Part shown: in pieces, positions 3,101-56,659 of the stretch
Position numbering within the stretch: the stretch's first letter is position 1
How the letters are laid out: each line of letters begins with the position of its first letter
NCBI RefSeq assembly: GCF_014633365.1
Contig: NC_068338.1
Coordinates: 20,098,616-20,162,615 of the forward strand
Length of the DNA: 64,000 nucleotides
Direction: 5' to 3'
Origin: Diospyros lotus
Taxonomy: Eukaryota > Streptophyta > Magnoliopsida > Ericales > Ebenaceae
The notes under the pieces: model-generated
Database searches by the model: none
What the model saw: the letters and a program-made list of their open reading frames with translations, nothing else
Told to the model about the DNA's origin: nothing
Program-made: the position numbers and the translations under genes

Positions 3101-6100
3101 AAAAAAAATATATCCCTGAAATCTTATATTATCTAACGTCCTGGGAAAGTGGGGTGTTACACCAGGCATTGCTGGCACTACAAATAAACATAGGAAGACG
3201 ACTTAATGAGTGTAAGAAATTAGGTACTTTGTTGTTTGGCACAGAATGTTGGGCAGTAAATACCAATATGTGTAAAATATGAGCGTGACCAAAATGAGGA
3301 AGCTAAGATAGATGTGCGGTCATACTAGTAACAATGAACTTAGAAATGAGATTATTTGAAATAAGGTCACCGTGGCTCCATTGAAGATAAGATGTGGAAG
3401 GCACAATTAAGATGATTTGGTCATGTGAGAAAAAGACCAACAAAGACTCATATAAGGATAATGGATGAATTGGAACAAGTACTTAACAAGGGAGCAAGTA
3501 GTGTTGTAATCACTTGTATTAGATTAGCTTTTATGTCTCGAGAGAGTTGTTTTCTTTTGTTGTTAGCATTTGTATATCACTTGTTTTATTCTAGAAGGTT
3601 TGTTTCTAGAATGGTTAGTTAGCAAATTTGTTAAATCGGTTAGTTAGTTGTAACTTCCGATAATTTTTTGATAGCTTTTCTGTTACCACCTCCATGCTGT
3701 ATAAATAGAGGTCGAGTGTTAGTCTTTTAGAGCAGCTTTATTCTGTCTTGGGAAGAGGGGAAGAGAGGAGTATGCGCTGGTTCTACTTGAGTACTTAGAG
3801 GGTATATCTTTGTATTTTGGGTAGGGAAACTCTCAGCAGTTCTGTGTATAAGGCTGGAGAGATCATTTAGTGCATGTAATCTTTTCAAGGTTCATTCAAG
3901 ATAGTGAAGATAAAGTGCCTAGGGCAATCTGGATGTAGGTCTTGCTAAAGACCGAACCAGGATAAAATTCTTGGTGTTTCTTGTTCCTTCAGTTTGTGTT
4001 TTGTTTTTTGGTTTTATCGCCAATCTTGTGTGTGTCTTCGTGTGAGTGATTCTGAGAGTGTTTCGGTTGTGAATTTGAGTGTGCTTGAGAGATACAAAGC
4101 TAGGGGATTATTCCAACAAGTAGTTGTCAGGATCCTAGGGTTTAGCTAGTATTTTAATAGGAAATCTGGAAGGAACCGAGGGATTTAGAATAGAAATGGA
4201 GGGCAAATTAGAAGAACCGAGGGAGATATTCAGCAAAATTGAGGGAGACTACAGACAAAACAGAACCAAGAGAGAGAGAGAATCAGAGAGCAACGATAGA
4301 AATCAGACTTGAGAGAGAAATCTGGAAATCAATTATCATTCAAGTATATGGTTCTCTAACTAATCCAGCCCATTTAGAGGCTTTACAACTGACGATACTA
4401 ACAGCTATAGCAGAAGAGTACAACCAGAAGAAAATACATATCATACGCATTACTATTATATCCTTGGGAATTTCTTGAGGTCGTGACAATTCCCCCCTCC
4501 TTGAGAGAGTTCTTGTCCCCAAGAACTTACAGCTATTGACCTTGCTCTTCATCCAATCCCTGCCTTCGCAATCTGATTGATTCTTCTTTATTTCTCCTTT
4601 TAGGCCTCTTCCTATTCGCTCTTATGTTCCTTTGCTTTTGCTTTCCCTACAGACATAAACTGTAGACCTCAAGGATCTCCATGTCAAAGCTCCCTTCTCC
4701 AGTGTCAAAACTCTCGAACCATATGGCAGAAACCTTCTTTTCCATCATCTTCTGAACCACATGGTTGTTCTCCTATTTAGTCAGTTTCAGTTACTCCTTT
4801 TCTAGTAGAGCGAGCACCCGTAACTGGTCTACACCATTTACAGCCAAACTGTCATATTGTTCAAGATCAAAAACACTCAAAGCGTCAGTAAGATTGTGCA
4901 AGTCCTCACCCTCCAGCTTCTTTCTTTGGTCCAAGTCCTCATTGCATGCCTGTCTCTCCTCAGCAATATGAGAGCTATCTTCATCACCATCCTCATCTTC
5001 CAATGCTACTTCATTAGCTTCCTACAAATATAAAATGTGATTGTCACTGATATCCTTGTCCAATCTCTCTTCCTTGCCAAAGTCTTTAGTTACAACTGGC
5101 CAGTCCAACTTCAATTTTTCCTCAGATTCTTGCTCTACTTGATTTGCGGCCTTAGAACCTCCTTCAATCTGTTGACTACTCTTAAGATAGCTTTTAGGCA
5201 GCAATCCATGCTTCTTGTAAATGGCTTCTAGTGCCAATTCTTGCAGCCTCGCCTTCTCGGCCATTTGTTCTACTGTGGCAGGGTGCATCACTTTCATAGT
5301 AGACCCCAGCGCATCGTTAAGACCATTAATGAATTTTAACACAAAGTAAGACTCATTCAAGGTCGGATGGGAATTGAGCATCAGCACTTTCAATTCCTCA
5401 AACCTGACCTTATAATCCGTTACGAAGCTTTCTTGTTTTCAGTTATTGAATTCTTCACTACACCTCTCATCTCTGACCTGATTTACTACTAATCCATCCG
5501 TTGTCTTCAAACTGTAAGCATTATGTATGCTTCCAATGCTTGCTCGAATTGGTCCTACAGTGGATCTAGAGTTGTCCTTTATCACTGAAAGCCGACTCCA
5601 TGGACAAGTAATGTCAAGATCTCCACCTGTCACCAAATCTGATCCCTTTCTTTGAATAATTGGGTCCGAATACTCGTTAGAAATTAACTAAGCTAGAAGG
5701 AAAATCTGAAATCGTTTGGCTACCATAATCATAATTTTGTCCAGTTGTTTGTTGAGTTTAGTGCATGTTTCCTCAAGTCTTGCGTCCATGGCTCGCTTTG
5801 AGATTGCTTCCGTTGCACAACTCTTTCTCCTAAACTTGAACGACTCAATTGCAGCTTCTTGAGAGGCGCCTACTGTCTAATTCAATAACCTAGATCCAGC
5901 CACTTGGAAATCACCAGAGTATCAATCAGATCTGAAACCGTTTCCTGAATTGATTGACACTGAGATCTAAGCTGACTAAGTTTGTCATTGAACCACCTTC
6001 AAATGCAGCTAGGATTAGGGTCGATTGCTCTGGATCGCCGATGGTCCGCATGCAAATCAACAATCCTCTGATTCTGCTTCCGATCCGCAATTGACTATCG

Positions 6101-9100
6101 CTTGAACCTTAATTCACCGGGATTCCACTAGACTCTTCGCCTTTCAATTTCAAACCTCAACCTAAGTCATGATGCAGTTACCGAGAATTGCCGCTATGAA
6201 TCCGCCTCAATTTGATACTTCTTTGTTAGAACCGCTTATGATTAATCGAGAATCAACATCCTGTTTTGCCTGCAAGATTTGAACACGGACTGTTGGAATT
6301 CACAACAGAGGAACGATCGGTTCTATTCACCTTCAATTCCAAGCCAAGAACTGCTTTACTCCTTGATTACAATCAATCTTTGATTCCTTCACCATCAGAT
6401 CATAAGAGATCGCCTATCAATAGTTGAAAATCACCATCAGAATTTGATTCCAATAACTGATTTGCTTTACTTGGAATCTGGCTTTGATTCTGATAGGCAC
6501 TTGACTTATCAAAGACAAGGGGCAAGGGTGTAAATTGGATGGCTGGCATAACAGCTAGCCATGTGCGTAGGGGTAGTGAAGGGAAATCGCTGGGTTGTGT
6601 AACAACCCAGCAAGCGCGTAACAGATTTATGTTGAGGAGGAGGGAGGGAAGAATATATAGAGGAGGAAGAAGTTGGGAGAGGGGGACATTGTTCTTGCAT
6701 TGAGTCTTAGGGAGAGTTAAGGGCCTCTCGAACGCCCTGGGTTGCTTTTGTTCTTGGCTAGAAAGTCTGATAGCTATTGATATTTGATTGTTGTTTGGAT
6801 TTCTATCGGGGATCCTATCAATTTGGTATCAGAGCATTTCGATCCTAATGGTGAACTTGACTGATCTAGTCGGTGATTTGGAGATGAGGGTGGAAGGCAT
6901 TCAACTGGGAGATGATGCCATGAGGAGTGCGTTTCAAACGATGGAGAGACACCTAGCGAACCTGCTAGAGCAGTTCGCGAGGATGCGAACAAGATGGGAA
7001 GAACAGGAGCGGGCGAGCAAGAGGAAGAATGAGGAGAGACGGGAGGAGCAAGAGAGAGAGAGGAAGGGGAAGCGAGATGAGGAAGACCCACCTGCGGGTT
7101 CGCCCTTGACAAGGGAGGGAACGCCGGTAGCTGGAGCGAGAAGTGGCGAAGGGGGTGACTGGGTCGATGGTGTCGAAAGGCAGGAGTACCGTGGGAGACG
7201 CCTGGAAATACCCATCTTCAAGGGAGATGATCTAGACGGCTGGGTCTTTAGGGCTGAGCGCTACTTCATTGTGAACCAGCTGTCTGATGCGGAGAAGCTG
7301 GAGACAGCAGCCTTATGCGTTGAAAGAGCGGCTATATCGTGGTTCCAGTGGGAGCAGCGAAGGCGACAGGTGAGGAGTTGGGCGGAGCTTAAGGCGACGG
7401 GTGAAGAGTTGGGAGTTGTGGTGAATGGGCTGGCTGTCGAGGAGAAGATGGACACAGCAGCACTGTGTTTGGAGGGTGCTACTCTTTCATGGGTCTAGTG
7501 CAAGCAACGGAGATGAAGAGTGAGAAGCTAGGAAGAGTTGAAGGGGCTGTTGAGGAATCGCTTAGGGTCCATGCTGGAAGGCGCGGGGGACGAGCTGCAT
7601 ATTGAAGGGGGATTGGCGGTTGAGCAGATGATGGTGCCGCGAGGCAAAGTGGCTGCCGACGACGATGGTGTTGGGGAGTTTCACGGCGAGGCAGAAGAGC
7701 AGTCAACGATCGATCCATTTAAAAGGCCGTGGACGGTCGAGCCGGTGACAACCAAGGAGAGCATCTCGCCGAGGAAGAGGGCGCCATCAACAATCCATGT
7801 TGTCTGGGAAGTTAGTGTGACTCTTAGCTAGGTTTCTCAAAAATTTTACATGGGGTTGGTTGATAATGGAGGGCCCCCCATGTATTCTCACCATCATGAG
7901 GGGGTGGGTGCCTCGTCCAAGCAGGTCATGATGGTGGAAGGGCAGCCTGTTTCTAGAAGTCAAGGGCTCAATTTGCATTATGTTGTGGAGCCTAATGAAT
8001 GTGCATCACTATCAAGCATTCCTCATGGTATATGGTACTGTTCGTATTGCCAGAATATGTTCCAAAGAGATAAGTTGGTGGAGCGTAATGCTAATGCTGT
8101 AGCAGCTAGACGGGTTTCAAGAATTGATCCTATTGAAGAAATAACCAAACGTTGTATTAGAATTGTCAAAAATCCTGAAGATGCTGAGGTCATTGCATGT
8201 GTTTTGTGCAGAGGTTCTGATTTTAGCAAATCTGGATTTGGCTCACAGACTGTTATAGTTTGTGATCAGTGTGAGAAAGAATATCATGTCGCCTACTTGA
8301 AGGAACATAAGATGGCCGATCTAAAGAAATTCTCAAAGGGAAAGTGGTTCTGTTGCATGGGTTGTAGGATGACCTATTCTGCTTTACAAAATTTACTAAC
8401 TTGTGGAGAAGAGAAGATCCAAGATTCTCTGTTGGATGTCATAAAGAATAAGCATAAGGACAAAGTTCCATATATGGTTTCTGACTTTGATGTGAGATGG
8501 AGGGTACTCAATGGCAAAATTGCTTCTTGGGAAACTAGAATGTTGCTCTCAAAAGTAGTTGCCATCTTCCATGAATGCTTTGACCCTATTGTCGATTCAG
8601 GAACTGGACGTGACTTAATTCCATCTATGGTTTATGGAAGGGGCTCAAGGGGCCAAGACTTTAGAGGAATGTATTGCGCAGTATTAATGGTGCACTCATC
8701 CATTGCATCAGCTGCAATCTTCAGGCTTTTTGGACAAGAAATTGCAAAGCTTCCTTTGGTTGCAACAAGTAATGATAACCAAGGCAAGGGCTACTTCCAG
8801 ATATTGTTTTCCTATATCGAGAAACTGCTTGCAAGCTTCAATGTGAAGAACTTGGTGCCCAATGGAATTGACCCAAAGATCTTAAATAATTATGGAAATT
8901 TGGGTGAACTTCATGATGAGGTTGAGAATTGGTAAGCCTTGAAACAATTGACAAAGTCAAGGTGCTGGGAGCTCGACCAGGGTCCGCAAAGAACTTACGG
9001 GGGTTCGAAGTGCTCATACAATAAAAGAGGGCTACCCCTATTGGAAGCTACTTGGGAACCTTACCTTTGATCCAGCAACGGTTTCCATTTTTCCACCTTG

Positions 9101-12100
9101 AGGACAAGGTGAAAGTTGGGGGGGGAGAGTAATGATAGGCACTTGACTTATCAAAGACAAGGGGCAAGGGTGTAAATTGGATGGCTGGCATAACAGCTAG
9201 CCATATGCGTAGGGGTAGTGAAGGGAAAGCGCTGGGTTGTGTAACAACCCAGCAAGCGCGTAACAGATTTCTGTTGAAGAGGAGGGAGGGAAGAATATAT
9301 AGAGGAGGAAGAAGTTGGGAGAGGGGGAGATTGTTCTTGTATTGAGTCTTGGGGAAAGTTAAGGGCCTCTCGAACGCCCTGGGTTGCTTTTGTTCTTGGC
9401 TGGAAAGTCTGATAGCTATTGATATTTGATTGTTGTTTGGATTTCTATCGGGGATCCTATCAGATTCCTTCAAAATCAGATCAGAACTACTGAAATTTTT
9501 GAACTCGTAACCGAGAATTGTCAACTCTGATACCAATTGTCAAGATCTTAGGATTTAGCTAAGATTTTAATAGGAAATCTGTAAGGAACCAAGAGATTTA
9601 GAATAGAAATGGAGGGAGAATCAGAAGAGCAGACGGAGATATTCAATAGAATTGTTGAGGGAGAATGCAAAGCAAACAGAACAGAACCAAGAGAGAGAAT
9701 CAGAGAGCAACAAGAGAAATTAAACTTGAGAGATAAATCTGGAAATCAATTATCACTCAACTATATGATTTTCTAACTAATCCAGCCTATTTATAGGCTT
9801 TACAACTGAAGGTACTAACAGCTATAGCAGAAGAGTAAAACCAAAAAAAGAAATACGTATCATACACATTACTATTGTATCCTTGGGGATTTCTTGGGGT
9901 TGTGACAGTAGTTAACAAGAGGTAGAGGAAGAACAAAAAACACTTGTTGGGAGACACTTAGGATAGATATTAGGACCATGCTACTTGTACATCGAGAGCT
10001 ACACCTTGGGCTACACACACACACACACACACGAGAAAATGACTAAAATACCCCTCGAGCCTCACCACCTTGTGTGAGGGGTATTTTAGTCATGCACCTC
10101 ACCACCTCGCGCTGCCTTAAATGAGGGGTATTTTGATCATTTGTGCGCGTGTGAGTAGCTCAAGGTGTAGCCCTCGATGTACAATAGCATTTTCCTAGAT
10201 ATTAAGTATATGAGCCTTATGGGAAAAAAGGCCATGGATAGAAATGAATGAAAAGCAAAAATTCATGTAGCCAACCCCACATAATGGGATAACGGCTTGG
10301 TATATTGTTGTAGCGTCAAGAAGAATAAAGGAGGTAGCACTATTCAAATCTATCCATCAAACTCGAAATGTTTGGCTTAAAATGAACAAATGCCACCAGA
10401 AACCATATTAACAAAATTTAAAAGGGCCAAACCCAACAAAAAGAACAAAGGCATCCCCCATCAACTGGGGAACTGGATTGCACAACTAAACAATCTAAAA
10501 ACTGTGAGTTCAATCAAAAACCGCACCTTTCTCTTCTTCTTGCCCACTATAGCTCCCCACCACTCTCTAAGATCTCTGACCATACTAGGGAAGCCCCAAA
10601 CAATCAATCAACAACCACAACTCTCTACCCAACAAACAAATGAGAAGGTGAGGTGCTTTACGTAAGAAGGTTTTCCTAGTACTGCAGATTTGATATGTAA
10701 TAATGATGGGCAGTTTTTGTGTGCCATGCCCAACACATTGAACAGAGTTATGTGAGACACCACATTTATCAAATAAAAGCAGGTTGTCTTGAATATAGAG
10801 TACTGGCCCCCACATTTATACAACTTAAAAATCAATGGCAGAAGACAGGAGCTCAAATTATTGATAATCACCATCACCAGAAACTTTTCGAGGACTGCAA
10901 ATTAAAAAGAATAAGAAAACAAAAACTGCAAATAGGATGAAGATGAAGTTCGCTCTTTCATAGTGATGGTATGATTGCGTCTTAATGACCCGAAGGTTAT
11001 AGGTTTAGTTGTGAAAAAAGCCTCTTCACAAAAAAGTAAATGAAGGTTGCATACAAATATGACCCTCGCAAAGTGTAGAGCCTCATGTACTGGGGATGCC
11101 CTTTTCAGTATGAAGATGAAGTAGTACATTAAAACATAGCATGGCACTATTCACATAAAATAATGAGGTTCTCAAGAAAGTAATGCCAACGGCAAGAATG
11201 GAGCATATAAGGCTTTTCTTAATATAAAAAGAGGAAAAAAGGCACCACTATTGACCCCAATCCAAGCAAAGGAAAAAGAAAAGACTAAAAATTAAAGGGC
11301 TCATTAAGCAGATGAGGAAAAGAAGTCAAATAAAAAAAGAACCTAATCAGCAAACCAAACAAAAAGCAAAATAAGGGTTGAACTCTTCAGAGAGTGAATG
11401 TAATGCTATACCCCTTGGAAGGCCGTACCATTCTCCTAATGTACCACATAAAAAAATGGAGTTGAAGGGAAAAAATGTATGAACTACAAGCACAGAACCC
11501 TAACTGCAAGAAAACAAGAATTCCCTTGCTAATGCTAGCACAACCATCTGAATACCAAAACCACAGAATATTAAACTCCAAATCTTATGAGCCAACCAAC
11601 AATGCAGAAGCAAGTGATCCGTTTCCTCACCATCTTCCTTGTACAAGTAGCATAACTGACCTAAAGATTGGGCCTCCCCTCCTCCAAATGATTTTCCAAG
11701 AAAGAGAGAGCCACAATCACTTAAGAGTACCGTACAAAGAACTAACCGAGAAGTGTCCACCTAGAGAAGGCCTCCAAATCCACCGATCTTCAAACTCTTT
11801 TCATGGAAAATGTACATGAAGGTTCCAAAATGAATTTTTATCAAATCAAACTCTCAATCCTAAAAATTTCTCCAAGAGATGGTGAGGTAATACCAATTCC
11901 TAAATATCTGAGCTAATACGAATCCATATAGACCTGCTGGTTACAAGCCAAACTAAAAAGAATGGGAAAGATTTCCCTCTATGACCAGTCCAGCTATCCA
12001 GCCAAAATCTGATTCTATCCCCCAATTCCATCCTAAAAAAATATTATGAGAAATGATTGGCCAAGAACCCTCAACTCCATACGATGAAAGGAAAGAAGAA

Positions 12101-15100
12101 TTAAAGCCTTGGGACAAATCATCGCATGCAGAACCACATTTACAATCCTCCAGAGATTGTCTAGTTCAAAACCTGGTTCACAATCCTCCAGAGATTGTCT
12201 AGTTCAAAACCGAATCTACAAAGACTTTTACCAAGGACAGCCTCATTAAAATTCCAAAAATTCTTATTCGGGCTGCTTCCTTCCATTAGAAGGAAAACAT
12301 ACCTAAAACTCATTATTCAGAGCCCTCCCCCCCCCCCCCAAAAAAAAAAATAAATAAATAAATAAATAAAAGACAAAAAAAAAAGGAAGAAAGAGAAACC
12401 TCTTTGGATTTTTCTAATCTCTTACATATCAGTGGTGGAATAAGACCAACATAAAATAAATATACCGGAGATCAAGATACTTTTAATAAGAGTCAACCTA
12501 TCTTGTTTAAATAAATAGTATGTTCTCCAATAAGCCAGTTTTTTTCTTCTTCTCTCAACAACCCCATTCAAAACCGCCTTCACTTTTTGAAATTCATTCC
12601 TAAACAAGAGCCAACGTGGTAGAAGGTGTTTTATTTCCTAAGCACCAGGAAAGAAAAAAGATTTTGCAACTCAAAGCCAGAAACTTCTGAATATTCTCCA
12701 CCTGCCCAACAGGAAAAATCTCACTTTTAGCAAGATTAATACTTAAACCAGAGACTCGTCATGACCTTGACCCTTCCCACTGCTTTGTGACTGGCACTTA
12801 GCAAAAGTCACCGCCCTTGGTGATGCTAAGTCAGCCATTGAAACTCTCTTAGAGGCAATGCACACGACAGGAGGAGCATTGAATGAATAGAAGGCTAGTA
12901 TTTCTAGAGAGATAAAGTACAAGCTAGTGAGATCAGTTCTCAATGATCACTAGGGATATTCAGGATTTCCATGATGGTATGGCAAAATGAGACCTCCCCC
13001 GTATGTAAGCTCTACACCTTATAATGGACGGTAGATATCCACACATGATGTTCTCAAACTTGAGACAAACTAGAGCCATCCAGAACTGCTAGAGCCTTCC
13101 ACAAAATTCCAGGACTCTCCTTAAAGGAATAGAGAATTCCGAAAGCTTCCAATAACCTCCAATGCTTCCTTCCTTTACTCATGGCTGAGCATCAGAATAT
13201 GTGTGGTGTGAATCACTTCAAAAATACGAACACATCTCAAAAATATCAAACCTCTAACTTTAGCATCACTAAAAAAAAGTGTCATCTGCAAAGATGCAAA
13301 TGTGACACACCCAGACACACACATACACACACAGCTGTTAGACTTCAAGCCAACACAAAAGCCAGAAACCACCCAGCCAACTCAGCTTTAAACACCAGTA
13401 ACTACTGATTCCATCACTAGGATAAAAAGGAAAGCATAAATAAAAACCCCTGGCTTCAAACCCCTATAGCTACTAAAAAAACCTTTTGGAGCACCATTGA
13501 TCATAATAGAAAATTTATCCAAAGAAATATAAAAAAGAAAAGGAGAATCCAACTCCTTCACTTGTCTCTAAAACCCATATCAAGCCTACAAGCAAACCCC
13601 GACATCTAGCTCTCAGGCTAAGAATCAATACATTCAATAGCAACAAGGGCCACTTTCAGCATTGCAATGACATTGGGAATACTTGATGTTACTAATAAGT
13701 AAAATTCCACTACAGTAAACCTCCACAACACAAGAATCATAAATCATCCATAAATTAACCAAAACAAGTGAAGAGAAAATGAATGGCATTACATACGGAT
13801 CTGCCCGCTTGAGTCGGCAAAGCTCACAATAAAAAACCTCGGGAACAGCAGGAGTAATACCCTCCTCAGGCTTCTCAGAAATAACAACACAACCCCTATG
13901 CTGCCACGCATGGCACTCTGGATCAACACACTGCACAACAAAATAAAAGAATAAGTAGAAAATGAAGCACATGTAATACACTGAAGTAACCAGTATATAC
14001 AAAGTATTGACATAACGTTTGTAAACTCTGCGTGGATCCTTTCCTTTTTTTTTCCCTTTCTGGTAGTAGTGAACGTATACTTGCATGGATATTTAGATAT
14101 TTTATGCAGCAGTCCACATAGTTATAATATCTTCTTGTTCAAACAAGAAAATGAACATCACGAGTAACCCTATATTGTCTTGTGACAATAAAGCAAACAA
14201 AAACTTTAACCAATAAACAGAATAAGGCAATTGAAAGGGGACAATGCTTTAGTTTTGCATAAACCCATTTACATGCTGTAGAAAGCCTCATTGAACACCT
14301 TCAGATCCCCAAAACTACGAACTCAAAGTGAAAAGGAAAATATTTGGGAAAAAAAAAAAACATAAACTCAACCACTCCCCTACAATATCCAAGGAAAGAA
14401 AATTCAGAAACATTGCTTCTTAATGCAAATTGGTTAACATCAGACATTCTACATCAGATTCAATTGCTGCTTTTTGTTTCCTTTCATCAGTAATCAGGTT
14501 TTATTTAGACCCATCTTTCTAAAAACTATGATTTTTGGATCAGATGAATTACATTAAAGTCTCCAAAAAATCAACTTTTACCAACACAATCAATAGCCAT
14601 GTAAGCTGCAATATGGCCATACCTCAAGTGTCCACGAGAAAACCTTGGTTAGAGAAAACCGTGGTAATAACCAAACACAAACTAAAAAAATCCAAGAGAG
14701 CCTCAAAAGAAGGTAAGGTCGTCCTAAATGCATTAGGCTTCTTGCTTTGCAACAATTGAGAAGGGTCATTTTTGTACACACCCTTACCCTTGCTCTACAA
14801 AGAGACTGTTTTCACAACTCAAACCCCTCACCTTCCAATCACAATGAACAGCCTTACCATTGCTACCAAGAAGTTGAAGGAAAAAATACCTTTAAAAATT
14901 TCACATTATGCACATTTAAATTAAGAGCTTATTGTTGTTTCTTGATTATACTCTCTTGCATTAGACTAGAAATGAGTTTCATGATTATTTCAATATATTC
15001 AGACTGACAAAGGTGTCAACTACTATCGAACAAAAACTTGTCATGAAGTTACACTTAGTTATTATGTTGATCATAGATAAAGCTTGCTCTAATGGAGGAA

Positions 15101-21100: not shown

Positions 21101-24100
21101 TCTATGTGAGGGAGAGAGAGAGAGAGAGAGAAAATAGGATTTAAAAAGCAAGGGCAAAATGTTCAATTTAAACATTCAACTAACAGCAAAAGTTTTTGTC
21201 ATTTCTAATGAATTGGAGGTGTCATGTCTTTTTGCCAAACTTCAAGGATGTCACATGTAATTTACCCTAATATTTTAAGAATAATGTTATTTATCTAAAC
21301 TTGAGATAGATCTCCAGTCTAATTGACGCATTTTCATTGGAAAAGTAAACATGGACACTTGCATCTTTTCATTGGAAAACCTTTTCATTTTTCAATGAAA
21401 AAGTGCCAACTAGACTAGAGATTTCTCTAATTTAAATAAATAGCATTACTCTTATTTTAATTATATCCTTCTGTTAGACTAGGAATTTCTAATATTTTAT
21501 ATTTGTCATTATTATAGGCTAAATAGCATCTTCACATTGAATTAGAGGTATTTTTCAATATTTTTTTGTAGTTTTTGGACAGAAATAACTTCTCTCACTT
21601 TTCATTTGATAGGACATACATATATATAGAAAATACAAGAGAGAAACCACCCATGTGGAGTCGGTTAAGGAAGGGAAAAACTGATTCAGTTAAGGAAAGA
21701 AAAACTTTAAGCTAGAGGGAAAAAAAAAAAAACTATACACCTAAATACAAAATTGTAATCACATAATTTTCTATACACCCCCTCAAACTGGGCTTAACTG
21801 GGTTATAAATATTAGGGAAGCCTAGCTTGGATCTTCACATCTTCAAACTGTGTCTTCAATAGATCTTAGTCCACCTTCAATTTTTCGTTATGAAGTGTCT
21901 ATCTATTTAGGTCACTTTGAACATGTTGAGTTGCTATCAATATCTAGTTAGATGACTAAGATATTGGGTAACTGAGAGGTCTTTTTGACAATGCCTCTGC
22001 TATGTCCTCAATGTCAGAATACGTCTCCTCTACAGCATCCTAAACTTCTTGTACCGTCTTGTGGAGGATGAAATTTACTCCGACTTGATGTCTCTTCAGG
22101 GTTGGAATACATCTCTTTCGTAGCATTCTCTTGTGCCATCTTGTGGAGGATGAAATTTCTTATCAAATGCCTTTTATGAGAGGCAAGCACCATCCTCTTT
22201 TACAATGGTAGCTTTTGACAAGTCCAGCTATAACAAACCTATACTCTTACACGGGATCAAGCAATAACCCTTATAATGCTTTTTACACTTGGGCTAAAGC
22301 AATAACCTGTACAATGCTTTTTACACTTGGGCAGAAACAATAACCCCTACAATACTTTTTTATACTCAGGTTGAAGCAATAACCCTTACAACTAAAATAA
22401 GATGAAGCCACCATAAATGCTAAAGCAGCAACCTCCAGAAAAATAAAGACAAATTGCCATACCCATTGTTTAACTCATTCGTGGCAAGCAAATTTTTTAA
22501 AAACTTTGAGGTTTCCTTGGCTGAGTCCGTGTGAATTACCTTCTTAGGGTATTTGGCGATGCTAGTAAATGCCATGACATGAAACTTCTTCATTGTCTAA
22601 ACCTGTCTACTAGACCTCGGAACATGGTTCACTGCCTTCGGATCCCGCAAGTCCTGCGACTTGAGCCTTGACTTGTGTAGCACCACCAGCTCCCAGTCAA
22701 TGGCGGTCTTTGTTGGAGATCATGTGACATGAGTAACTAAAGTTTGTTAGCTTTCTCTATGGTTTAGTTTTATGTTAGCTAGCTGTTGTAAATTAAGAGG
22801 TTGCTTTACACGATCAGGCTTGTAATAGAGGCTGGCTGATTGTATATATATACCAGCATAGTCTTCCTTTTCTGTATCAATTGCTGTGTTAATACAATAT
22901 CAGTTCTCTCTCCCTATCCCTCTCTGATTCGTTCCTCCATTATATCGTATTTTGACATGGTATCAAAGCCAACGGATTAACATCCATGGCATCAAATCCT
23001 AGTTCGAATTCTGCTTCCTCTCTTCCTCCACATGTCTCGTCATCACTCTCGTCTGCATCTCAGTCGAATTTTGCTGAGATGACCAAGGCGTTTAACTACA
23101 TTCCAATTCACCTTGATCCGAACAATTTTCTTTTCTGGAAGGCACGGATCTCTGCCACTATTCGTGCTTTCGATCTTCAGTCGTTTATCAACAAGACGCC
23201 ACCTCCTCCGAAATTTATAGCAACTTCAGATGTTGATGCAGAAGACAGTACAACGGTGAATCCAGAGTATCTGATTTGGATGCGATCTGACTAGTTGCTA
23301 CTTGGCTGGCTGTTTTCAACCATTAACAAGGAAGTCTTAGCTCAAGTGATTAATTGCGAGTCATCCTCTGAGGTATGGTCGTGTCTAGAGAATTTATATT
23401 CGAGACAAACAATTGCTAAATCTTTTTAACTCAAGCAACAACTTCGATCAGTTAAGAAAGATTCTATGTCAATTAACGACTATATACTCAAGATTAAAAC
23501 GATATGACACTCTCTTGCTGCTATAGGTGAACCATTGAATGATAAGGATGTTCTTCTAGCAATTCTTAATGGATAGGATCAAGAGTATGAGCCTGTTGTC
23601 AGTCTCATAACCTATCAAATGGATGACATTGATTTAGACAAAGTGCAGTACCTTTTGTTAATGCATGAACAACAATTGAGTGTCAAGAATTCTGCTCATA
23701 CGTCTGTTAATGCCGAGTCGTTTTTACTGTCGACAATGAATGTAAATTTTAGTGACAGCAAGGCAAGAAGTACTGGTGGTTCAGTGAATCATGGAGGAGG
23801 TTACATACAAAATAGAGGTGGTTATAATCGTGGAGGAAGAGGTAAAGGTCGTCAATCTAATAGACGTGTGTATTGTCCGCTTTGTGGAAAGCCAAGACAT
23901 GTTATGGATCAGTGTTATCATAGATTTGATCGTAATTTTCAAAGAGGAACTTCTTTTCAATCAAGTCAAAATCCTGGTCTGATCTATGGGAGAGGCAACT
24001 CGAGTTCTTCTTTTGATCCAAGAGCCTATACAGCCTCTCACTGTGACTCTAACGAGCCCTACACTAGTGATGTAGGTTCTGCGTATGGAACAATTGGCCA

Positions 24101-27100
24101 TTTTTCTCAGCCACAGAGTTTTGACAGCCCTCAGTCTTCTATTTTATCATATTCTTCATGGTTTGTTGACTCCAAGGCAACTAACCATATTACATCAAAC
24201 CTCAACAACCTTTCTTTACATGCTCCATACAACGGCAATGACAAAGTCTCCGTTGGTAATGGTAAGAAACTTCCCATCTCATGTTGGTCTTGGACATTTG
24301 AATACCCATACACAACCAGCTTCTACCATTTCTCTATCCAATGTTTTACATGTGCCTAACATGACTAAGAATTTAATTAGTGTTTCTCAACTCACTAGAG
24401 ATCATGATCTTGTGGCTGAATTTAACTCTTCTTCTTGTTTGATCAAGGACAAGAAGTCCGGGCTGGTTCTTCTCAGAGGATTTCTTAAGGATGGGCTTTA
24501 TCAGCTGCATTCAGCATTTGGTCATGCTAACAGCCCTTCTGCCCAACCTCTTGAACCAACTCCTTGTTCCTTTTGTTCTAGTAGTACTTTCCTTTCAACA
24601 AATAAATGTAATAGGCCAAATTCATTTTTTCCTGAACTGCCTATGGCTGTGAATGTAGCTTTTAACAGCGCATTGTGTAATCAATAGCATGCCAAATTAG
24701 GCCATCCCTCGTTTCATATTCTGAAAATGGTATTGAATAAAATTCACATTCCCTGCTCTAGTTCTACTATTTCCTTTTGTGATTCTTGCAAGGTTGGGAA
24801 ACTTCATCAATTACCATTTGTTGATTGCTCTATAACAGCAAAACAGCCTTTTGAATTACTCTATTCTGACCTCTGGGGACCTTCACCTACTGTTTTTGTT
24901 GAAGGTTATCGGTATTATATTGTTTTTGTAGATGCATATACACGGTACACCTAACAATACCCTCTGAAACTTAAATCAGAAGCCTTGTCTGTTTTTGTAA
25001 CCTATCACAAGCTTATTGAAACTCAATTCCAGACCAAACTTAAGGCTCTACAAACTGATACTGGTGGTGAACTTAAAGCTTTTGTCCCTTATCTCCGCCA
25101 TCATGGTATCCAACCTCGGTTCACATGTCCCTATACTCATCAACAAAATGGAGTAGCTAAACTCAAACATAGGCATATTGCTGAAATAGGGCTTACCCTA
25201 CTGTCTCATGCCAACATGCCTCTCTCATTTTGGGTAGCAACCTTCAGCACTGTTGTGCACACTATCAACCTTCTACCCTCTTCTCCTCTCAAATTTTGTT
25301 CTCCATTTGAAGCTCTTTTTCATAAGCAGCCGAATTATCTTAAGCTACAGCCTTTTGGTTGTACAGGTTTCCCTTATCTTCAGCCTTATCATAAACACAA
25401 GTTTGATTTTCACTCTACCAAGTGTGTTTTCATTGGGTATAGTTATGGTCAGGCTGGTTACAAATGTTTGCATCCTTCTGAGAGAATCTACATTTCCCGT
25501 CATGTAGAATTCAATTCAGCTGAATTTCCTTATATCCAGTTGTTTCCTTCACCTATGTTGGCTTCTTTTTCATCACCTTCTACCTTTGGTGGACTTTCCA
25601 CTATTGTGTTTCGATCTCTTTCGTTGTATAAATCCTCTAGAGGAGATCAGCCTGTGGATTCTTCTCCTATGGGTACAAATGGTTGTAGTGTTTCAGCCAC
25701 TATATCACCATCCAGCCCTGTGGTCCCCAGATGTCAATCCCGGATTCCTCACCCTATACCTGCATCAACTCCCTCTATTCATCCTCTGGAAACCTGGTCC
25801 AAGACCAAACTTCTTGCTTCTTCTCAACTTTCTCCTCATGTCCTTGTTAGTTCCCTAGAACCTACTTCAGTTAGTGAGGCCTTGTTAGATTTCCAGTGGG
25901 TTCAGGCTATGACTAATGAATTTTCAGCCTTGCAACGCAACCATACATGGGATTTGGTTCCCTTTTCTAATGATATGAATCTGATTGATTGCAAATGGAT
26001 GTTTAAAGTGAAGTATAAATCTAATGGTACAATACTTAAACATAAGGCTCGGCTTGTAGCCAAAGGATTCCATCAAACACCCGACATTGATTTTGAGGAG
26101 ACATTCAGTCCAGTTGTTAAGGCCCCGACAATCCGAGTTTTGTTTACTCTAGCAGTGACTTATGGCTAGGATATTCAAGAAGTGGATGTGAATAATGCTT
26201 TCCTAAATGGAGATCTTCATGAGGAGGTGTTTATGGTCCAACCAGAGGGTTTTATTGATGATCGATTTCCCACTCATGTCTGTAAACTTAGGAAGTCGCT
26301 CTATGGCCTTAAACAAGCGCCTAGAGCTTGGTATACAAAGCTGAGATCAGCCCTACATTCTTGGGGTTTTGTTAGAGCCATTTTCGATGCTTCTTTGTTC
26401 ATTAAGAGGACTGATCAGTTTGTTATGTATGTTTTGGTATATGTAGATGATATCTTGATTACCGGGTCTAAGCAATCAACTCTTCAAACATTCATTCGTG
26501 ATTTGGACACTCATTTTGCTCTCAAGACCTTAGGGTCGATTCATTATTTCCTTGGGTTTGAGGTGTTTCGAAGTTCCACTAGAATATTTCTTTCTCAGTC
26601 CAAATATACAGTTGATTTGCTGAGAAAGGCTTCTATGCTAGCATGTAAACCTTGTGACACTCCTATAACTTCCACTAGTGCATTAACATCTGAGGGTGAA
26701 CTATTTTTTAATCCTTCATTGTACCGAACAATCATTGGTTCTTTACAATATTTGACTTACACACGACCTGACATCTCCTTTGTTGTTAACAAGCTTAGCC
26801 AGTTCCTGTTCTCTCCGAAACAGCAACACTAGGTGGCCTGCAAAAGTTTACTACGTTACCTCAAAGGCTCTGTTGGTCAAGGATTATTATTCTCCCCAGT
26901 TCCTTCTGATCTACCACTTGTAGTCTACTGTGATGCTAATCATGCAGGTTGTAAAATTACAAGAAAGTCAACAAGTGGTGTATGTGTTTTTCTTGGCAAC
27001 AATTTAGTGGTGTGGAGCTCAAGAAAACAAACTATTGTAGCTAGGTCAGTTGGAGAGGCTGAGTATAGAGCTATTGCTCAAGGTGTCACAAAAATTATGT

Positions 27101-30100
27101 GGTTGGTTTCTTTGTTTTCTGAATTGGGCCTTAAATCTCAGCCTACGCCAATTATTTGGAGTGATAACATGGCGGCTAAGAGCATTGCAAAAAACCCAAT
27201 ATTTCATTCTCGTACAAAACATTTTGAGATTGATCTTCATTTTGTTTGAGAAAAGGTTGAGAAGGGAGAAGTGGAGATTAGATATGTTCCTACATCTAAT
27301 CAGTTGGCTAATGTTTTTACTAAAAGTATTCCTAAGAACAGATTTCAGTTGCTATGTACTAATCTGGGCCTACGGATGTCTCTTGCTCAAGCAGCTCATT
27401 CTAAGACAATTGAAGAACAACCATCGGTCAACAGGAAGTTTGTTTTGAGGGGGAATGTTGGAGATCACGTGACATGAGTAACTAAAGTTTGTTAGCTTTC
27501 TCTATGGTTTAGTTTTCTGTTAGCTGGCTATTGTAAATTAAGAGGTTGCTTTACACGATCAGGCTTGTAATAGAGGCTGGCTGATTGTATATATATATCA
27601 GCATAGTCTTCCTTTTCTGTATCAATTGCTGTGTTAATACAATATCAGTTCTCCCTCCCTATCCCTCTCTGATTCATTCCTCCATTATATCGTATTTTGA
27701 CAGTCTTCTTCGCCTTCTCTATTGTGAGCGACTGTCCGTCTATGACTAACCACTTGCATCTACCATCTTCAATGCCGGAGTGTGGCACTGTGTTGCCCCC
27801 TTTCATCTTCTCCAACGAAGGTGGGATTTCGGTTTTCGAGTTTTTGTGTTGCAAACCCTTTTGTCTTTCCCGTCAATCTCTGTTCTGCGACCCTTCGCTT
27901 TCTCCATCGTGACTGCAATCGGTCAGTCATCCCTTTGATGGCAACAATTGTGATTGCAGTTAAGGGCGACGACGACAGTGGTTATGGTTGGGGTTACGGC
28001 TATGGCAGATGAAGTTAAAGGAGATGACTAGAGATGAAGGAGATGTGCAGGTGCCAACGATGGCAGAGATCTTCACCATCTTCGTCACTCTCTGTGTCTC
28101 TCTCTCCTTAACTCTTCGTCTCACTACTTTGATACCATGTAGTTTTTGGACAAAAATAACTTCTCTCACTTTTCATTTGATAGGACATACATATATATAG
28201 AAAATACAAGGGAGAAACTGCCCATATGGAATCAGTTAAGAAAGGGAAAAACTGATTCGATTAAGAAAAATTGTCACCTAGAGATAAGAAAAAAATAACT
28301 ATACACCTAAATACAAAATTGCAATCACATGATTTTCTACATTTTTAATATTCATTATTGTATCCATAATTATTAATGATTAAAATATAAAAAGTGTTGC
28401 ATTTTGTCTTATCATTGCAACATCTATATCCTTATTTTGCACAAATCACAATATCATACACCCTTCATCATATGCATATCAATGTATTGCCTAATAATCG
28501 AAATTTTGGAACCAAATTACAAGTACCATGAATATGAAAAGTGTATCAAATCTAACAAGGATACAATTATGTGGATTAGGGCACCATAATGAAAACACCA
28601 ACACCACAAAAAGTTGTGGGTCTTGTCACAGATTAAATGAGGTGTCTATCTTGGTTAGATGGGAGATGCAAACACCAACTATTAGATTCAGATGTCACGA
28701 CACGGCCAACACTGTAATTGCACACTATTTGTATTTCTATTGATTCTATTGATTGTACTTTGCTAATACTATTTTTTATTGCACCTCCAGTTACAATAAC
28801 TAAACAACAGCAAGCCTATAAATAGGCTAATTGTAGAGGATGGGGATTCATGTGGAAATTAACAAAAAATCTTTTGCCTCCAATTCTCTATTCTCCCTCT
28901 TTTCTTGATGTTCTCCCTCCCTTTCAGCCTAACTCTCCCTCCAATTCTCTTTAATTCTCAAATTCTACCCAAAACAACCACTGTCAAATCTTAGGATCTA
29001 ACATTGAAGTATTCGCGAAGTGGGAAACAACTCCGTAGTTATTCTTTAGCACATTAATTGCAAAATAAATCTATCTTTTCATATGGAAATTTGAATCTTA
29101 GTTGCTAACATATCTCATGGATAATACATAGACATTTCAACACCTTAACTTAATTCAAAGATTTGTGGAAAAGACATTCACTCTTATCACTAAACTAAAT
29201 TTGCACCCTATTTCGAAACAAGGTACATTGTTTTGTCACCTTACCTTGGCATGAGTCAGTGTGTTTTGCCTGCCACATCTATGGACAAGCTTAAATCACA
29301 AGGCCCTAGGCCTTGTCATGAGTGTGAATGGGCCTTACTCAATGAGTAAAGCATACCACTTACCTCAATTGTGCATATCCTCCACCTTGAAAATGTATTT
29401 TTCTCATTTCCAATTCCTTAGGGTCAATAATTTGTGACCAATCAACTCTTCTTCCTTCAATCTCTCAACTATGGATAATTGATTGTATCTTCTCATTTTG
29501 AGTTACATTGGTGTCACAACCTAGGGTTGGGCTAGGGTTTAGAAAGGAAATTTAGAAGAATTCGAGGGAGAGAGAGAGAGTAGAATTGGAGGGAGAGACT
29601 AAGCAGAAACAGAGAGAATAGAAGGAAAACTGCGGAAATCAAGAGAGAGAAAATGTAAGGAAAGAAGCTTGAATTCAATATTTCATTTCATAATCCATTC
29701 TTTATATACGATAGCCTATTTATAACTGAAAGCATATTCTAGAAATAGCACCCATGTGCTCTTCAATAGATATCATAACCACCTATAGCTAAGGGAAAAT
29801 ATCTCTAACAGAAAGGAGAAAAAAAATACAAATACTACTCTTGGAACGTGACAAATTTCCCCCCTTAAAATGTTTCTTGTCCCCCAAGAAAATTACTACC
29901 ATTGAGCTATTGTTCCTTTATCCAATTCCAGTTGGCTATCCTACTTCGTTGTCTTCCTCTAAGCCTTCCATATTCAACAACTGTCTTCTGCATTGGTGGC
30001 CCGGACTGAATTTGTCCCCGCATTTAGAGGATAATCTAGGCCTTCTCTTTGGCTCCATAATAGGAGGTTTGGCTGCATTAGGGTTAGTGTGAACCCTAAG

Positions 30101-33100
30101 ATGCTCTTTTCCTTGAGTTAGACCTGAGGCTGCAGTCCAAGCATTTTCTCCCACCTCCTAACTACTCAGAGGATAACCTTCTATTAGAGTTCCGAGCCTT
30201 TTGAAAATAGCTTCTAATGCAAGCTCCTGCATTCTCACCTTCTCAGCTGCTTGCTATACTGTTTCTGGCTACATCATCTTTGCAATCAGTTTTAATTCGT
30301 CATTCAACCCAGTTACGAAACTAGACACAAAATATGCTTTCATTCAAGGTTAGATAAGATATGATCACTAACGATTTCAGCTCCTCAAACCTAGTTTGAT
30401 ACTCTTCTACCGAACCTTCCTACCTTGGCTTATTGAATTCTTCGATAATGTCCATCCTAGTTCTTTCCCCGAATCGCATACAGAAATCGTCCACAAACTC
30501 CTGCCAACTCAATTTCATCCTCCTCCTATTCCACCCTTGGAACCATACAAGTGGTTGCTAAATTCACCTTTCGTCCTTCCGCCACTCTATATTAGTAAAA
30601 GAATCGTTCACATCTCCATATCCACCATCTTGGTTTGTCTCCTTCGAATACCGGAATGTCTAGCCTCGACAATGGGGGTGTGATACTGATTCACTTGTCC
30701 CCTAATGGAATTTTTTGGTACAAATTCCGATCGTTCCTCTGTTTCCAGAAGATCAAGAGCATGCTGCCAAGGTCTTGCCTCTATTGGAATTGAAGCCGAG
30801 GTGGGCCTTGGAGGGAAGTTTGTTGGCAAGCTCATGTTAGGAATTATGGAGAATAGACTTAGGACAGTTCTTAGCTGCTGTCTAAAACTAGGGAATTCTT
30901 CTTGGAGAGTGAAGAAGTCTTCTCTCAGATTTCTCTCCACCGCCATTGTTGAAGTTTGCCTCGAGTTTTGTCCTAGAAGATAGCAGAACCAGAAGGAGTA
31001 TAAAAGAGTAGTTTTGGCTGAAGAAATTAGGCAGCTAGGGGTTAAGTGTAATTAGTACATTTTGTTGGGGTTAATATGTAATTTCCCTAAGTTAGTTAGT
31101 TGCCTAAGTGTGTCTGCCTCCTCTATAAATAAGAGGGCAAGGCAACAGTCTAATAACTCCTCTCTCTTGTCAAGTTCTCTGTTTCTATTGTGAGTATTCT
31201 TTGTTCTAGAGAAAGTGAGGCATGTGTATTGTGTTCTTTAGTTTTCTTGGAGTGAACAAGGGTTGTACTTGAGCAATAGGGTTGAGAGAGGGCTTGGGCT
31301 TTGTACTGATCAGTTTCATCCTAATAAAAGGCTGCTCTTGATGGGTGTTTGAAGGCTGGATGTAGGATTGCCAAATGCATTCCGAACCAGGATAAATCTG
31401 CGCCTAATGCTGTTTGGTTTGATCTTTTAAATTCAGTTATTTTCTTTTCTGTTGTTCATTTTTATGTTCTTACATTTACATTACATCCGAGAGTCTTTAA
31501 GAGGGTTTATGTGAGGGTTTTCTCGCCTAAGGGTGTAATCTAAGAGTCCTAAGGTTAACAGCCATCATGTCAACTCTGCCTCGACTAACTTCCTCTTGAG
31601 TCTAATGGAGGCCAAGTTCCATCATCTCCAACCTTTCCTCTATCCGTTCCCGGTTCTATTAAAGGCCCGTCTCCATCGCATCCAACACCACATCTCCAAT
31701 TGTTGCATCCTCGTTCCTTCCACCATCACTAAATGCACCTATTACTTTTGATAACTTGGCTACACAGCTCATCGAGTCCACTGATGGTGATAACCGATCG
31801 AAATTATGAAAATTCCGATCGTCTTCACTCAATCAGCTTCTAGCTCACTGAACCCGATCAATGGATATTTTCAATCGTGATGGCACTGAATTTCGATCGC
31901 TCGGAATTGCTGCTTGCTAGAAGTACTCGAAACTAAATGGTCGAGAATCGCCTAGCTCTAAACAGCTTTGATTGGATTTGCTGCTTGCAGTTAAGTTGAT
32001 TGCTCAGACTCAATTTGCGATCATTGTGATTCAACAACCGCCCCCAAACCTACTTCCACTTCGCACCTTCCTTTCTCGCTAGAATCAACGCCTTTGTCTA
32101 ATCACCGTCCAATGTTCAGAGGACCACTGGCTCTAATACCAAAATGTCACAACCTAGGGTTGAGCTAGGGTTTAGAAAGGAAATTGAGAGAGAGAGAGAG
32201 CGGAATTGGAGGGAGAGACTAAGCAGAAATAGAGGGAATTAAAAGGAAAACAAGGGGAATCAAGAAAGAGAAAATAAAAGGAAAGAAGCTTGAAGTCAAT
32301 ATTTCATTTCATAATCCATTCTTTATATACTATAGCCTATTTATAACTGAAAGCATATTCTAGAAACAGCACCCATGTGCTCTTCAAAAGAAATCATAAC
32401 CACCTATAACTAAGGGCAAATATCTCTAACAAAAAGGAAAAGAAAATTACAAATACTACCCTTGGAACATGACAACAGGGTAATTAGTCAACACCAGTCG
32501 ACTTCTTCCTTTACCTCTTAATTGTGGGTTATAATGGATTGTCCCAACCTCACTGTCGATTATTCAAGCAATAGTTGACTACAACAGCCATCAATTGACC
32601 TTTCTTACATGTCTACCTTACATACACTTAATGTCAATTCACAATCAAGCTTATTCATGAGATATTAGATGCAACAACTCTCTCTGTGATCAAAACATAT
32701 CCCCATTTCATTTTATATCATAAGATCAACATGATAGATAAACATTTAAGCATCTACATAAGGCGCATAGTGTTGTGTATATCTTCCTCCCTTATCTACC
32801 CCCCAAGTTGGACATCTTCTCCAACATTTCCATGGTCTAGAATTTTAAAATGCAATGCATGAGAATACATTCTCAATAAGGCATGGCATGGCAATGCAAT
32901 AATACACAATAGCCATCAATCACACGTTTCATGAAAGTAGCCCTTAACCTTGAAATTCCCCATTCATTGCATGGGGACCTCCTAGGTTCAAGCCTCATTT
33001 TTCCCTTTGACATCATTGTCGCATTATCTCTGTGGCCCCAGGCCATAATCTCACATTAGCCAACATTCTCTACCATTACAAAAGGGGTATCACAACACAT

Positions 33101-51962: not shown

Positions 51963-52325
51963 TGTTGGTGATAACTAAGAAAATAGAAGTAAAACACAGT
52001 AAAGAGAATTCACAAAATGGAGGCAAATCACAGATATATTTTATTGAGTCTCTAGAATTGTTTAAATACATCAAACCTTAACTGAATTCATCCATAATCT
52101 CCTAAAATATTGGAACTAATTAACTGAAGAATTTCAACTACAGATAAATAAAAAAATAAATCATAATAGAAGCTAAAAGATTAGGACTGTAACTAACTAT
52201 TTTATCAATTAAGTTAGCTACTTCTGCTCCTATTTTTCCTCTCCCAAAGCCAGCTATAAGAGAGATTTCCAGATTATCTTCAATTCTGCTCCAACGTTAT
52301 AACAGTTGCTAAGGCATTTTCAACA
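51963..52325 (-). repeat. LTR (3' in element sense) of Copia 51963-56659
   Basis: 363 bp, TGTTGGTGATAACTAAG to GCATTTTCAACA. Its complement is the end of the transcript; GAGTCTCTAGAATTGTTTAA is shared with the partner LTR save one base. Confidence 0.94.
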
Positions 52326-55300: not shown

Positions 55301-56237
55301 TTTGCAGCAAACAATTGCTCTTCCTGGTGATCAGCAACCTGAGCTTCTGTAGCTTGATGAGATTTACTTTTGCATATCTTAGCAATATGTCCCAGTTGCT
55401 TGCATTTGTTACACCTAACATCTGGTCTCTTCCAACATCTATAAGGTGGATGGCCCTTCTTTTTGCAGTGTTCACAAGGAGGAAAGTTTGGCTTGCCACT
55501 ACCTCCTGCCTTGCTGTCAGATCGATCCACTTCCTCCTTCTTCCATTTCTTTTTTTCTTTACCACCTTGACTAACCTACAACTTAGCCTGCAATGCTCCC
55601 TTAATTGACCCTTCCTGCTTTATAAACATTCTCTGTTCCTGTGCTTGCAAGGCATTCAAAAGTTCTGCCAAAGTGATGATTGACATGTCTTTTGAATTCT
55701 CCAAGGCTGAGATTGTTGTCTCAAACCTTTCAAGAACTGTCACAAGTAACTTCTGCACTATCCTTGAATCAGCAAATTCACCTCCCAGCAATCTCACCTT
55801 GTTTGCAATTCTCAGAAGTTTATCTGAGTATTCTTGAACTGTCTCAGATTCCTTCATCTTCTGCAACTCAAATTCCCTTATTAGATTCAGCTTTTGCATC
55901 CCCTTGATCCTCTCATCTCCTTCATACTCTTTCTTGAGAAAATCCCAGATCTCTTTAGCTGTCTTCAGGGTCATAATTCTGGTGAATATTGTGTTGGAGA
56001 AACTGTAGAGAACAAATAAGACTTGGCCTTTGACTTTCTCTGCTTCTTTTCTTTGTGATTCCTTAGTTGAGCTACAGTTGGATTCTCAGGCAAAGGAGGG
56101 ATGTCATAATCCTCCTCAACAGCTTCCCAGAGGTCATTGGCATCTAGAAAAGCTTCTATTCTTACTGCCCAAACTTGGTAGTTTAAACCATCAAACACTG
56201 GAGGAGCTATAACAGTAAAAGGAGTTTCAGCTTGCAT
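52280..56237 (-). pseudogene. Copia gag-pol polyprotein, lightly broken
   Basis: Start MQAETPFTVIAPPVFDGLNY at 56237. Gag runs through 55971, where a 2-bp insertion near 55990 shifts the frame; it continues MTLKTAKEIWDFLKKEY (55974). The zinc knuckles are CEHCKKKGHPPYRC and CNKCKQLGHIAKIC (about 55465-55370). The protease motif is VDSACSNHM (Ala where Gly is usual). Integrase has HKRLGHCNQ and CKAC, then VHTDLSEP, RSDNGTEYTS and NRVTERKNRT (all three acids kept). Reverse transcriptase has LDVKSAFLNGYL, YGLKQAPRAWY and YVDDLL. RNase H has YSDSDWGG and STSGYC and ends near FTKALPKTNFEQLRLDLGM. TAA/TAG stops at about 55115, 54762 and 53128 each look like a Gln codon changed by C to T. A frame break lies near 53930-54010. 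Confidence 0.93.
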
Positions 56238-56296
56238 GGTGTTTATCTAAAAAATAGCTCACAGGTCCCACAAGAAAAATAGCTCTGATAGCAATT

Positions 56297-56659
56297 TGTT
56301 GGTGATAAGTAAAAAAATAGAAGTAAAACACATCAGAGAGAATTCACAAAATAGAGGCGAATCACAGATATATTTTATTGAGTCTCTAGGATTGTTTAAA
56401 TACATCAAACCTTAACTGAATTCATCCATAATCTCCTAAAATATAGGAACTAATTAACTGAAGAATTTCAACTACAGATAAATAAAAAAATAAATCATAA
56501 TAGAAGCTAAAAGATTAGGACTATAACTAACTATTTTATCAATTAAGTTAGCTACTTCTGCTCCTATTTTTCCTCCCCCAAAGCCAGCTATAAGAGAGAT
56601 TTCCAGATTATCTTCAATTCTACTCCAATGTCATAACAGTTGCTGAGGCATTTTCAACA
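56297..56659 (-). repeat. LTR (5' in element sense) of Copia 51963-56659
   Basis: 363 bp, about 96 percent identical by hand count to 51963-52325. Adjacent to the primer-site variant. Confidence 0.94.

Follow-up and report, generated by a model that had tools for sequence, protein, structure and literature searches.

A short, degraded LTR element in the genome of the date-plum, Diospyros lotus (positions 6491-9462), holds a spliced piece of an IDM1-like host gene and belongs to a family whose members have taken up other host genes as well. It lies in the window, the 64,000 nucleotides analysed here, which correspond to C1:20098616-20162615 of the 630-Mb assembly. The best explanation of these captures, and judging from the sequences a highly probable one, is that element RNA was spliced onto host exons and that reverse transcriptase then jumped to element RNA, as a habit of the family. 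This reading is built on joints at exon starts, a GT in the recipient, lost introns, 3’ ends in mid-exon, stacked captures and neutral decay, all of which were observed.

The element reads on the plus strand and shows TG...CA LTRs, a 5-bp target-site duplication, a primer-binding site and a polypurine tract, as expected of an LTR retrotransposon. Its 330-bp LTRs (5’ LTR, TGATAGG...CCTATCA, 6491-6820; 3’ LTR, 9133-9462) are flanked by a perfect GATTC duplication (6486-6490 and 9463-9467), as an earlier sequence-only reading of this DNA had described. The LTR pair has 9 differences (K2P 0.0278), corresponding to an insertion age of about 1.1 My at an assumed rate of 1.3e-8. The primer-binding site, TGGTATCAGAGC (6824-6835), presumably matches a tRNA of the initiator-Met type. 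A degraded gag and leader frame (6839-7831) with in-frame stops at 7496, 7514, 7529 and 7829 is followed by an element leader of 55 codons ending in CCTAATG (7832-7997), as defined by comparison with relatives and family members, and then by the captured segment (7998-8857). Element sequence resumes with CCCAATGG (8858-8911, from comparison with relatives), where the bases from 8858 on duplicate, with one mismatch, the 7 nt that precede the insert. Among the 11 IDM1 copies having this flank, 10 read CCCAATGGTATTG, or CCTAATGGTATTG in L007, and the window reads CCCAATGGAATTG. A remnant of Methyltransf_29 (PMT-like) coding sequence, another capture, comes next (8912-8973, right edge approximate); it was assigned via the aligned relatives L035 and L028, with no direct match in the window. 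The chromodomain-like C-terminal end of pol follows (9003-9132), with the polypurine tract at about 9110-9132, before the 3’ LTR. A candidate reading of the window’s pol-like tail as pure element sequence was dropped, as the Methyltransf_29 piece is present there in L028 and L035.

The window gag frame itself gave no Pfam gag match, and a search with it returned three matches only. One relative, P0119, shares 56% identity with 68% of the window gag and contains Retrotrans_gag (E 2e-5; 25.1 bits, cut-off 24.1). A search with the leader only had a sole match, P0117. Chromo (PF00385) was found at 18.6-23.9 bits, below the Pfam cut-off of 25.1, in L026, L027, L028, L029, L030, L032, L034 and L035. 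By its gag type the element is a putative non-autonomous member of the Ty3/gypsy type, perhaps of the chromovirus branch; reverse transcriptase and integrase were not seen in the elements read. The earlier term ‘gag-only’ was loose, as the gag and leader frame has four stops and as a pol end resembling a chromodomain and a second piece of host origin are also retained.

The IDM1 element sits within an older minus-strand LTR element (4124-9849; LTRs near 4124-4432 and 9537-9849), just inside the latter’s primer-binding site, from whose letters the strand was read. Elsewhere in the window, a second short LTR element on the minus strand (29619-32475) shows similarity to the same gag in one stretch (P0119, 40% over 40 residues). 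Its gag region also contains a long stretch of foreign appearance, and no captured gene was recognised in this element. Copia-type elements are located at 22711-27702, 51963-56596 and 59007-62128, where Pfam recognised RVT_2, gag and integrase pieces in some of the frames, and a tandem repeat with a period of about 62 bp lies at the window end (63607-63978).

The captured segment lies in a stop-to-stop frame of 367 codons (7832-8935), whose terminating TAA falls within the Methyltransf_29 remnant. Counted from the ATG at 7850 it has 361 codons with no stop and none of the parent’s seven introns, which confirms the open, intron-free frame described previously. Residues 56-342 of the frame are IDM1-like and the remainder is element; in a BLASTP search against 121 proteins, residue 55-57 is the start of 72 aligned pieces and residue 342 the end of 59, and a few extend to 347-367. 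The bounds of the host insert were given by P0117, in which the element parts matching 7781-7996 and 8858-8923 abut with two residues overlapping. The insert corresponds to the spliced form of 8 exons and contains the end of PHD1, a linker, PHD2 and 95 of the 140 IDM1_C positions. Of the PHD plus GNAT content that had been proposed, the GNAT part stands (IDM1_C, E 9e-33), but the domain is incomplete, with profile positions 1-95 of 140 compared to 1-139 in the protein P0001, and the PHD is degenerate (Pfam 12.2 bits against a cut-off of 24). Cys155, which we take to be a PHD2 zinc ligand, is Tyr in the window and in L002, and Cys in the parent and in 8 of the 10 copies with data. Base shuffling of the insert left none of 5000 sequences open.

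The predicted model of the captured piece has a mean pLDDT of 76, with about 120 alignment columns matching GCN5-type domains and TM scores (normalised by target) of 0.55-0.62 to GCN5/PCAF entries among the 50 matches listed. It stops after the central helix and a short strand and covers a GNAT domain in part only. The window’s end branch in a 21-protein tree was 0.30, against 0.13 for Escallonia, the nearest row, a median of 0.19 and others up to 0.79; this is weak evidence because several other rows are longer. Viral contigs scanned with the frame held no relative. A PHD-finger exon of a likely host gene, presumably SIZ1-like, is also present in the window (13634-14092, minus strand), with a Pfam PHD match below the cut-off.

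The insert aligns to C13:5386872-5412714 of the same genome in 8 blocks of 93-99% identity (96.2% nucleotide identity over 861 nt). Between these blocks lie 7 introns of 125, 91, 117, 21408, 125, 150 and 2967 nt, all GT-AG and none in the element; the exon junctions were taken from this alignment, in place of gaps in the proteins of relatives. The parent’s coding frame is intact over the compared exons, and paralogues on C14 and C3 are more distant than the C13 gene. The insert begins at a parent exon start on the left and ends on the right 69 nt inside the last exon. In the parent region (L009-L012; C13:5380001-5418000) there was no match to the PHD1 / Tify-binding part of P0001 within 6.9 kb upstream; the C13 parent may itself be 5’-truncated, or its upstream exons may be distant. 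IDM1 exon pieces that begin with the same exon or close to it also occur in two short Camellia proteins, P0111 and P0118, one of which is fused to a gamma-tubulin complex protein, perhaps through an annotation error or another capture.

The IDM1 piece was found at 12 loci (L001-L008 and L015-L018, the last four partial or internally deleted), and none was seen in the examined stretch of 35 fetched family members. Eleven changes from the parent (6 synonymous, 5 not) are common to all copies with data or to all but one, and therefore point to one capture followed by amplification. Both outer LTR ends could be resolved in five IDM1 copies, four of which have perfect target duplications (L001, L005, L006 and L015; not L016), and LTR divergence is 0.028-0.076 in the nine copies with a measurable pair. 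On this comparison the segment is evidently a spliced piece of the C13 IDM1-like gene, captured once and then amplified with the element. The sequence-only reading, which had proposed a spliced host mRNA piece in a non-autonomous LTR element, was upheld in this respect by the intron-bearing parent on C13, by the 12 insert-bearing loci and by the family members lacking the piece. None of the outcomes that it had named as refuting was observed.

A genome search with the element leader gave, by hand count, at least 71 further places besides the IDM1 copies; 16 places with the element tail directly behind the leader were left out of the survey. Thirty-five of the further places were read in a non-random sample, made up of ten with long open frames (L019-L028), eight others (L029-L036), four of which have frames >330 codons, and seventeen taken regardless of frame (L037-L053). 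Pfam was run on pieces of 13 loci, and the remaining loci were assigned by DNA alignment to those. A clear host piece was present in 30 of the 35 loci; in L047, L049, L050 and L051 about 40 nt of a Methyltransf_29 piece seem to be left (alignment to L032), and L033 was the sole locus with no host piece in the stretch read. Besides IDM1, pieces of at least five host genes occupy the same slot, namely those of a Methyltransf_29 protein, a KUP transporter, a Sec63-domain protein and an AGC-type kinase, together with an exon from C6.

Methyltransf_29 was identified by Pfam in L026, L028, L029, L030, L032 and L035 and by alignment in 12 of the 17 loci L037-L053, with 56 nt of it also in L042; the piece in L044 is the fullest among the fetched elements, others having internal deletions. 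The KUP transporter piece is carried by L026, L030 and L031 (K_trans down to E 9e-75). The Sec63-domain piece occurs in L027, L034, L036 and L042 with weak Pfam values of 0.005-0.02, below the cut-off, and no Pfam match in L036; a Sec63 domain in the PDB matched the Sec63 piece at 3e-7. The AGC-type kinase was found by Pfam in L019, L021 and L022 (E down to 6e-21) and by alignment in L023-L025 and, for its start, in L020. In the related public protein P0117 the same leader is joined to the C-terminal 237 residues of GDP-mannose 3,5-epimerase. Captures are stacked in several members: KUP with Methyltransf_29 in one element (L026 and L030), the C6 exon joined to a KUP remnant, the kinase joined to a preceding C6 piece and, in the window, the IDM1 piece with the Methyltransf_29 remnant at about 8912-8973, as assigned through its aligned relatives. 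Near the leader end of L026 there is a short tandem duplication (HSVVEP repeated) just before the KUP joint.

Comparison with host DNA placed the 5’ joint at a host exon start in five of five cases (IDM1, KUP, Sec63, C6 exon and AGC kinase). With a slash at the joint, and the genome given before the element, these are tgcag/AATGTGC and CCTAATG/AATGTGC for IDM1; tgcag/ATATAGAAG and CCTAATG/ATATAGAAG for KUP (host locus C3:5315475-5321964); tgcag/ATGGCAATT and CTTGAAG/ATGGCAATT for Sec63 (host on C3); ttgcag/ATGATAATGG and CTGCTT/ATGATAATGG for the C6 exon; and tacag/TTAACAG and GATGAG/TTAACAG for the AGC kinase (host on C2). The joints are exact to within 0-2 bases because the element and the intron end share those bases (G or AG) at each of them. 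The KUP joint alone would be ambiguous because ATATAGA resembles the element’s GTATAGA, and the host exon start decides it.

Recipients continue with GT in all four cases having one to compare, the kinase joint being without a recipient. For IDM1, AATG/GTATTG stands beside the insert itself in 10 of 11 copies; these 10 read AATGGTATTG there, and the window reads AATGGAATTG, with GGAATTG and not GT beside its own insert. The KUP recipient reads CCCAATG/GTATAG, and this site at the leader end, which was used for KUP, is G/GTA in 18 of the 25 members without IDM1, KUP or kinase and not GT in the other 7. Sec63 recipients read CTTGAAG/GTGTGG in L032, L037, L040, L046 and L048, with the variants CTTGAAG/GTGTGA in L045 and CTTGAAA/GTGTGG in L039, and those of the C6 exon read CTGCTT/GTATGT, or CCGCTT in L031. 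GT makes up 0.055 (5.5%) of the dinucleotides in the elements. When 3888 positions, pooled and in part overlapping, were scored with a donor matrix, the leader site being taken as GTATAG, 8, 6 and 12 of them reached the values of the three sites. At the other end, all three 3’ joints examined (IDM1, KUP and Sec63) are mid-exon, with shared words at KUP and Sec63, and introns are also absent from the KUP and Sec63 pieces.

An exon-start left joint, a GT in the recipient and a right end in mid-exon fit splicing followed by one template jump. An element transcript would run on into, or be spliced with, a host pre-mRNA, presumably by read-through, with a GT in the element or in an earlier captured exon acting as the 5’ splice donor for a host exon start. 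In the resulting chimeric RNA the 5’ end would still carry LTR, primer site and gag, and this RNA could be co-packaged with ordinary element RNA. Reverse transcriptase would then begin on the ordinary RNA and make a single jump, probably in this direction, onto the chimeric RNA inside a host exon, which would rebuild a two-LTR element with a host insert. Captured exons can bring new cryptic donors, and therefore captures can stack. We lean towards viewing the family as a ratcheting exon trap, in which the leader-end donor and the donors of captured exons splice onto downstream host exons that are collected serially, the reverse transcriptase jump mobilises them, and fusion frames (leader plus IDM1, kinase or transporter) are seeded genome-wide. 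The parent region gave no match to the LTR or to internal element sequence (C13:5380001-5418000), and a read-through donor is not seen at C13 because no element lies within 6.9 kb upstream of the parent or in its introns; an element formerly by the parent may have been lost or may lie farther upstream.

Both ends of a capture could instead arise from reverse transcriptase switching templates, between element RNA and a spliced host mRNA packaged with it, and the coincidence at exon starts would then be accidental. Template switching is an accepted capture route (PMC13317346, as far as the source was seen), and the short shared words at the KUP and Sec63 3’ joints agree with it, but five exon starts out of five and four recipient GTs out of four would be very unlikely for free jumps; the idea is already strained and we consider it unlikely. 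An imperfect 7-nt duplication of element sequence flanks the IDM1 insert and might suggest capture at the DNA level, by gene conversion or repair insertion of genomic DNA. All seven introns are precisely missing, however, and the KUP and Sec63 pieces are intron-free as well, which excludes such an origin for these inserts unless the donor was a processed cDNA and makes it the least probable alternative of all.

The IDM1 piece might have been kept for a function, as an element-made anti-silencing or dominant-negative protein, given that the frame is open through leader and insert and that a straight reading of the host piece meets no stop in 7 of the 12 copies (three full length, four partial). 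The same straight reading finds stops in 5 of 12, a figure that we use in place of the 4 of 12 counted by aligned codon; it adds L008, which also has frame-shifting deletions. Private changes in the 12 copies number 135 (99 nonsynonymous, 31 synonymous and 5 stops) against a neutral expectation of 69%, 27% and 4%, and purifying selection on the captured frame was rejected on these neutral counts; changes common to subsets of copies were 19 nonsynonymous and 10 synonymous. The window copy differs from the parent by 25 nonsynonymous and 8 synonymous changes (dN/dS 0.82), and the other copies give 0.20-0.70, values that include the parent’s own constrained branch. Based on the LTR age, the neutral chance of no stop since the window insertion is 0.65, and the claim that the element ‘kept it open’ is not supported. 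Together with IDM1_C cut at 95 of 140 positions, a predicted model of only part of the GNAT domain, the Cys155 to Tyr change and unrelated genes captured in the same way, these counts leave a retained function very improbable. A special anti-silencing role was likewise rejected, and there is no sign that an anti-silencing gene was chosen because IDM1 is only one of several captured genes. The insert could also act mainly as a source of small RNAs against the C13 parent, to which it is 96.2% identical over 861 nt, and such conflict is reported for captured maize genes in the part of PMC13317346 that was seen; the parent’s coding frame is nevertheless intact over the compared exons, and we regard this role as doubtful. 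A dominant-negative or siRNA effect on IDM1 would raise silencing and be no help to the element. That a silencing target benefits from IDM1 debris is without support here.

In the model of retroviral oncogene transduction, capture proceeds by read-through, splicing and packaging. The captures described here are similar in their splice-like 5’ joint and recombination-like 3’ joint within host sequence, whereas the element is a plant, Ty3-type, non-autonomous one with repeated captures and no sign of product selection. A 5’ joint made by splicing is indicated by the sequences (five of five exon starts, four of four GTs), and an element upstream of or in the host gene was not found at C13:5380001-5418000.

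Gene capture by LTR elements is already established (PMC13317346 and PMC3726574, both seen in part). The maize LTR retrotransposon Bs1 holds three host-gene segments in one element, according to the part of PMC13317346 seen, and the present family resembles it as an LTR element with segments of several host genes in one element and a hybrid frame; an intron-free segment between LTRs, an intron-bearing parent in the same genome and more than one captured host gene were likewise found here. Unlike Bs1, members of this family differ in their gene sets, their captures are stacked and the tested 5’ joints lie at exon starts by an element GT. In rice, sorghum and maize, 672, 1343 and 424 LTR-captured genes were counted and tested for selection and expression (PMC3726574). 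As here, these are host genes between LTRs, many of them pseudogenes, but in the text of that source as available to us ‘intron’ appears 0 times and no description of capture junctions was found, whereas junctions are described here.

In Drosophila, TART-A has captured nxf2, a gene that suppresses TART-A, and makes piRNAs (PMC7785250, in part). Both cases involve a transposon holding a piece of a silencing-pathway gene, but from the portion seen of PMC4899616 IDM1 opposes silencing, in contrast to nxf2. VANC and KIU are described, in the part of PMC13317346 seen, as working anti-silencing genes of Vandal transposons; the link of a mobile element to anti-silencing is shared, but the IDM1 piece is a decaying fragment. 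In a literature search mostly at record level, neither the family nor the splice-joint signature was found.

Large numbers of captures by plant LTR retrotransposons have been recorded, but accounts of how a capture starts have mostly come from models. In this family, host parents and members that lack the piece could be compared within one genome; for several captures this places the 5’ joint to within two nucleotides and indicates splicing. Open chromatin-regulator frames in transposons can be neutral debris, and the long-standing question of whether capture starts by a splicing accident or by a template jump becomes testable.
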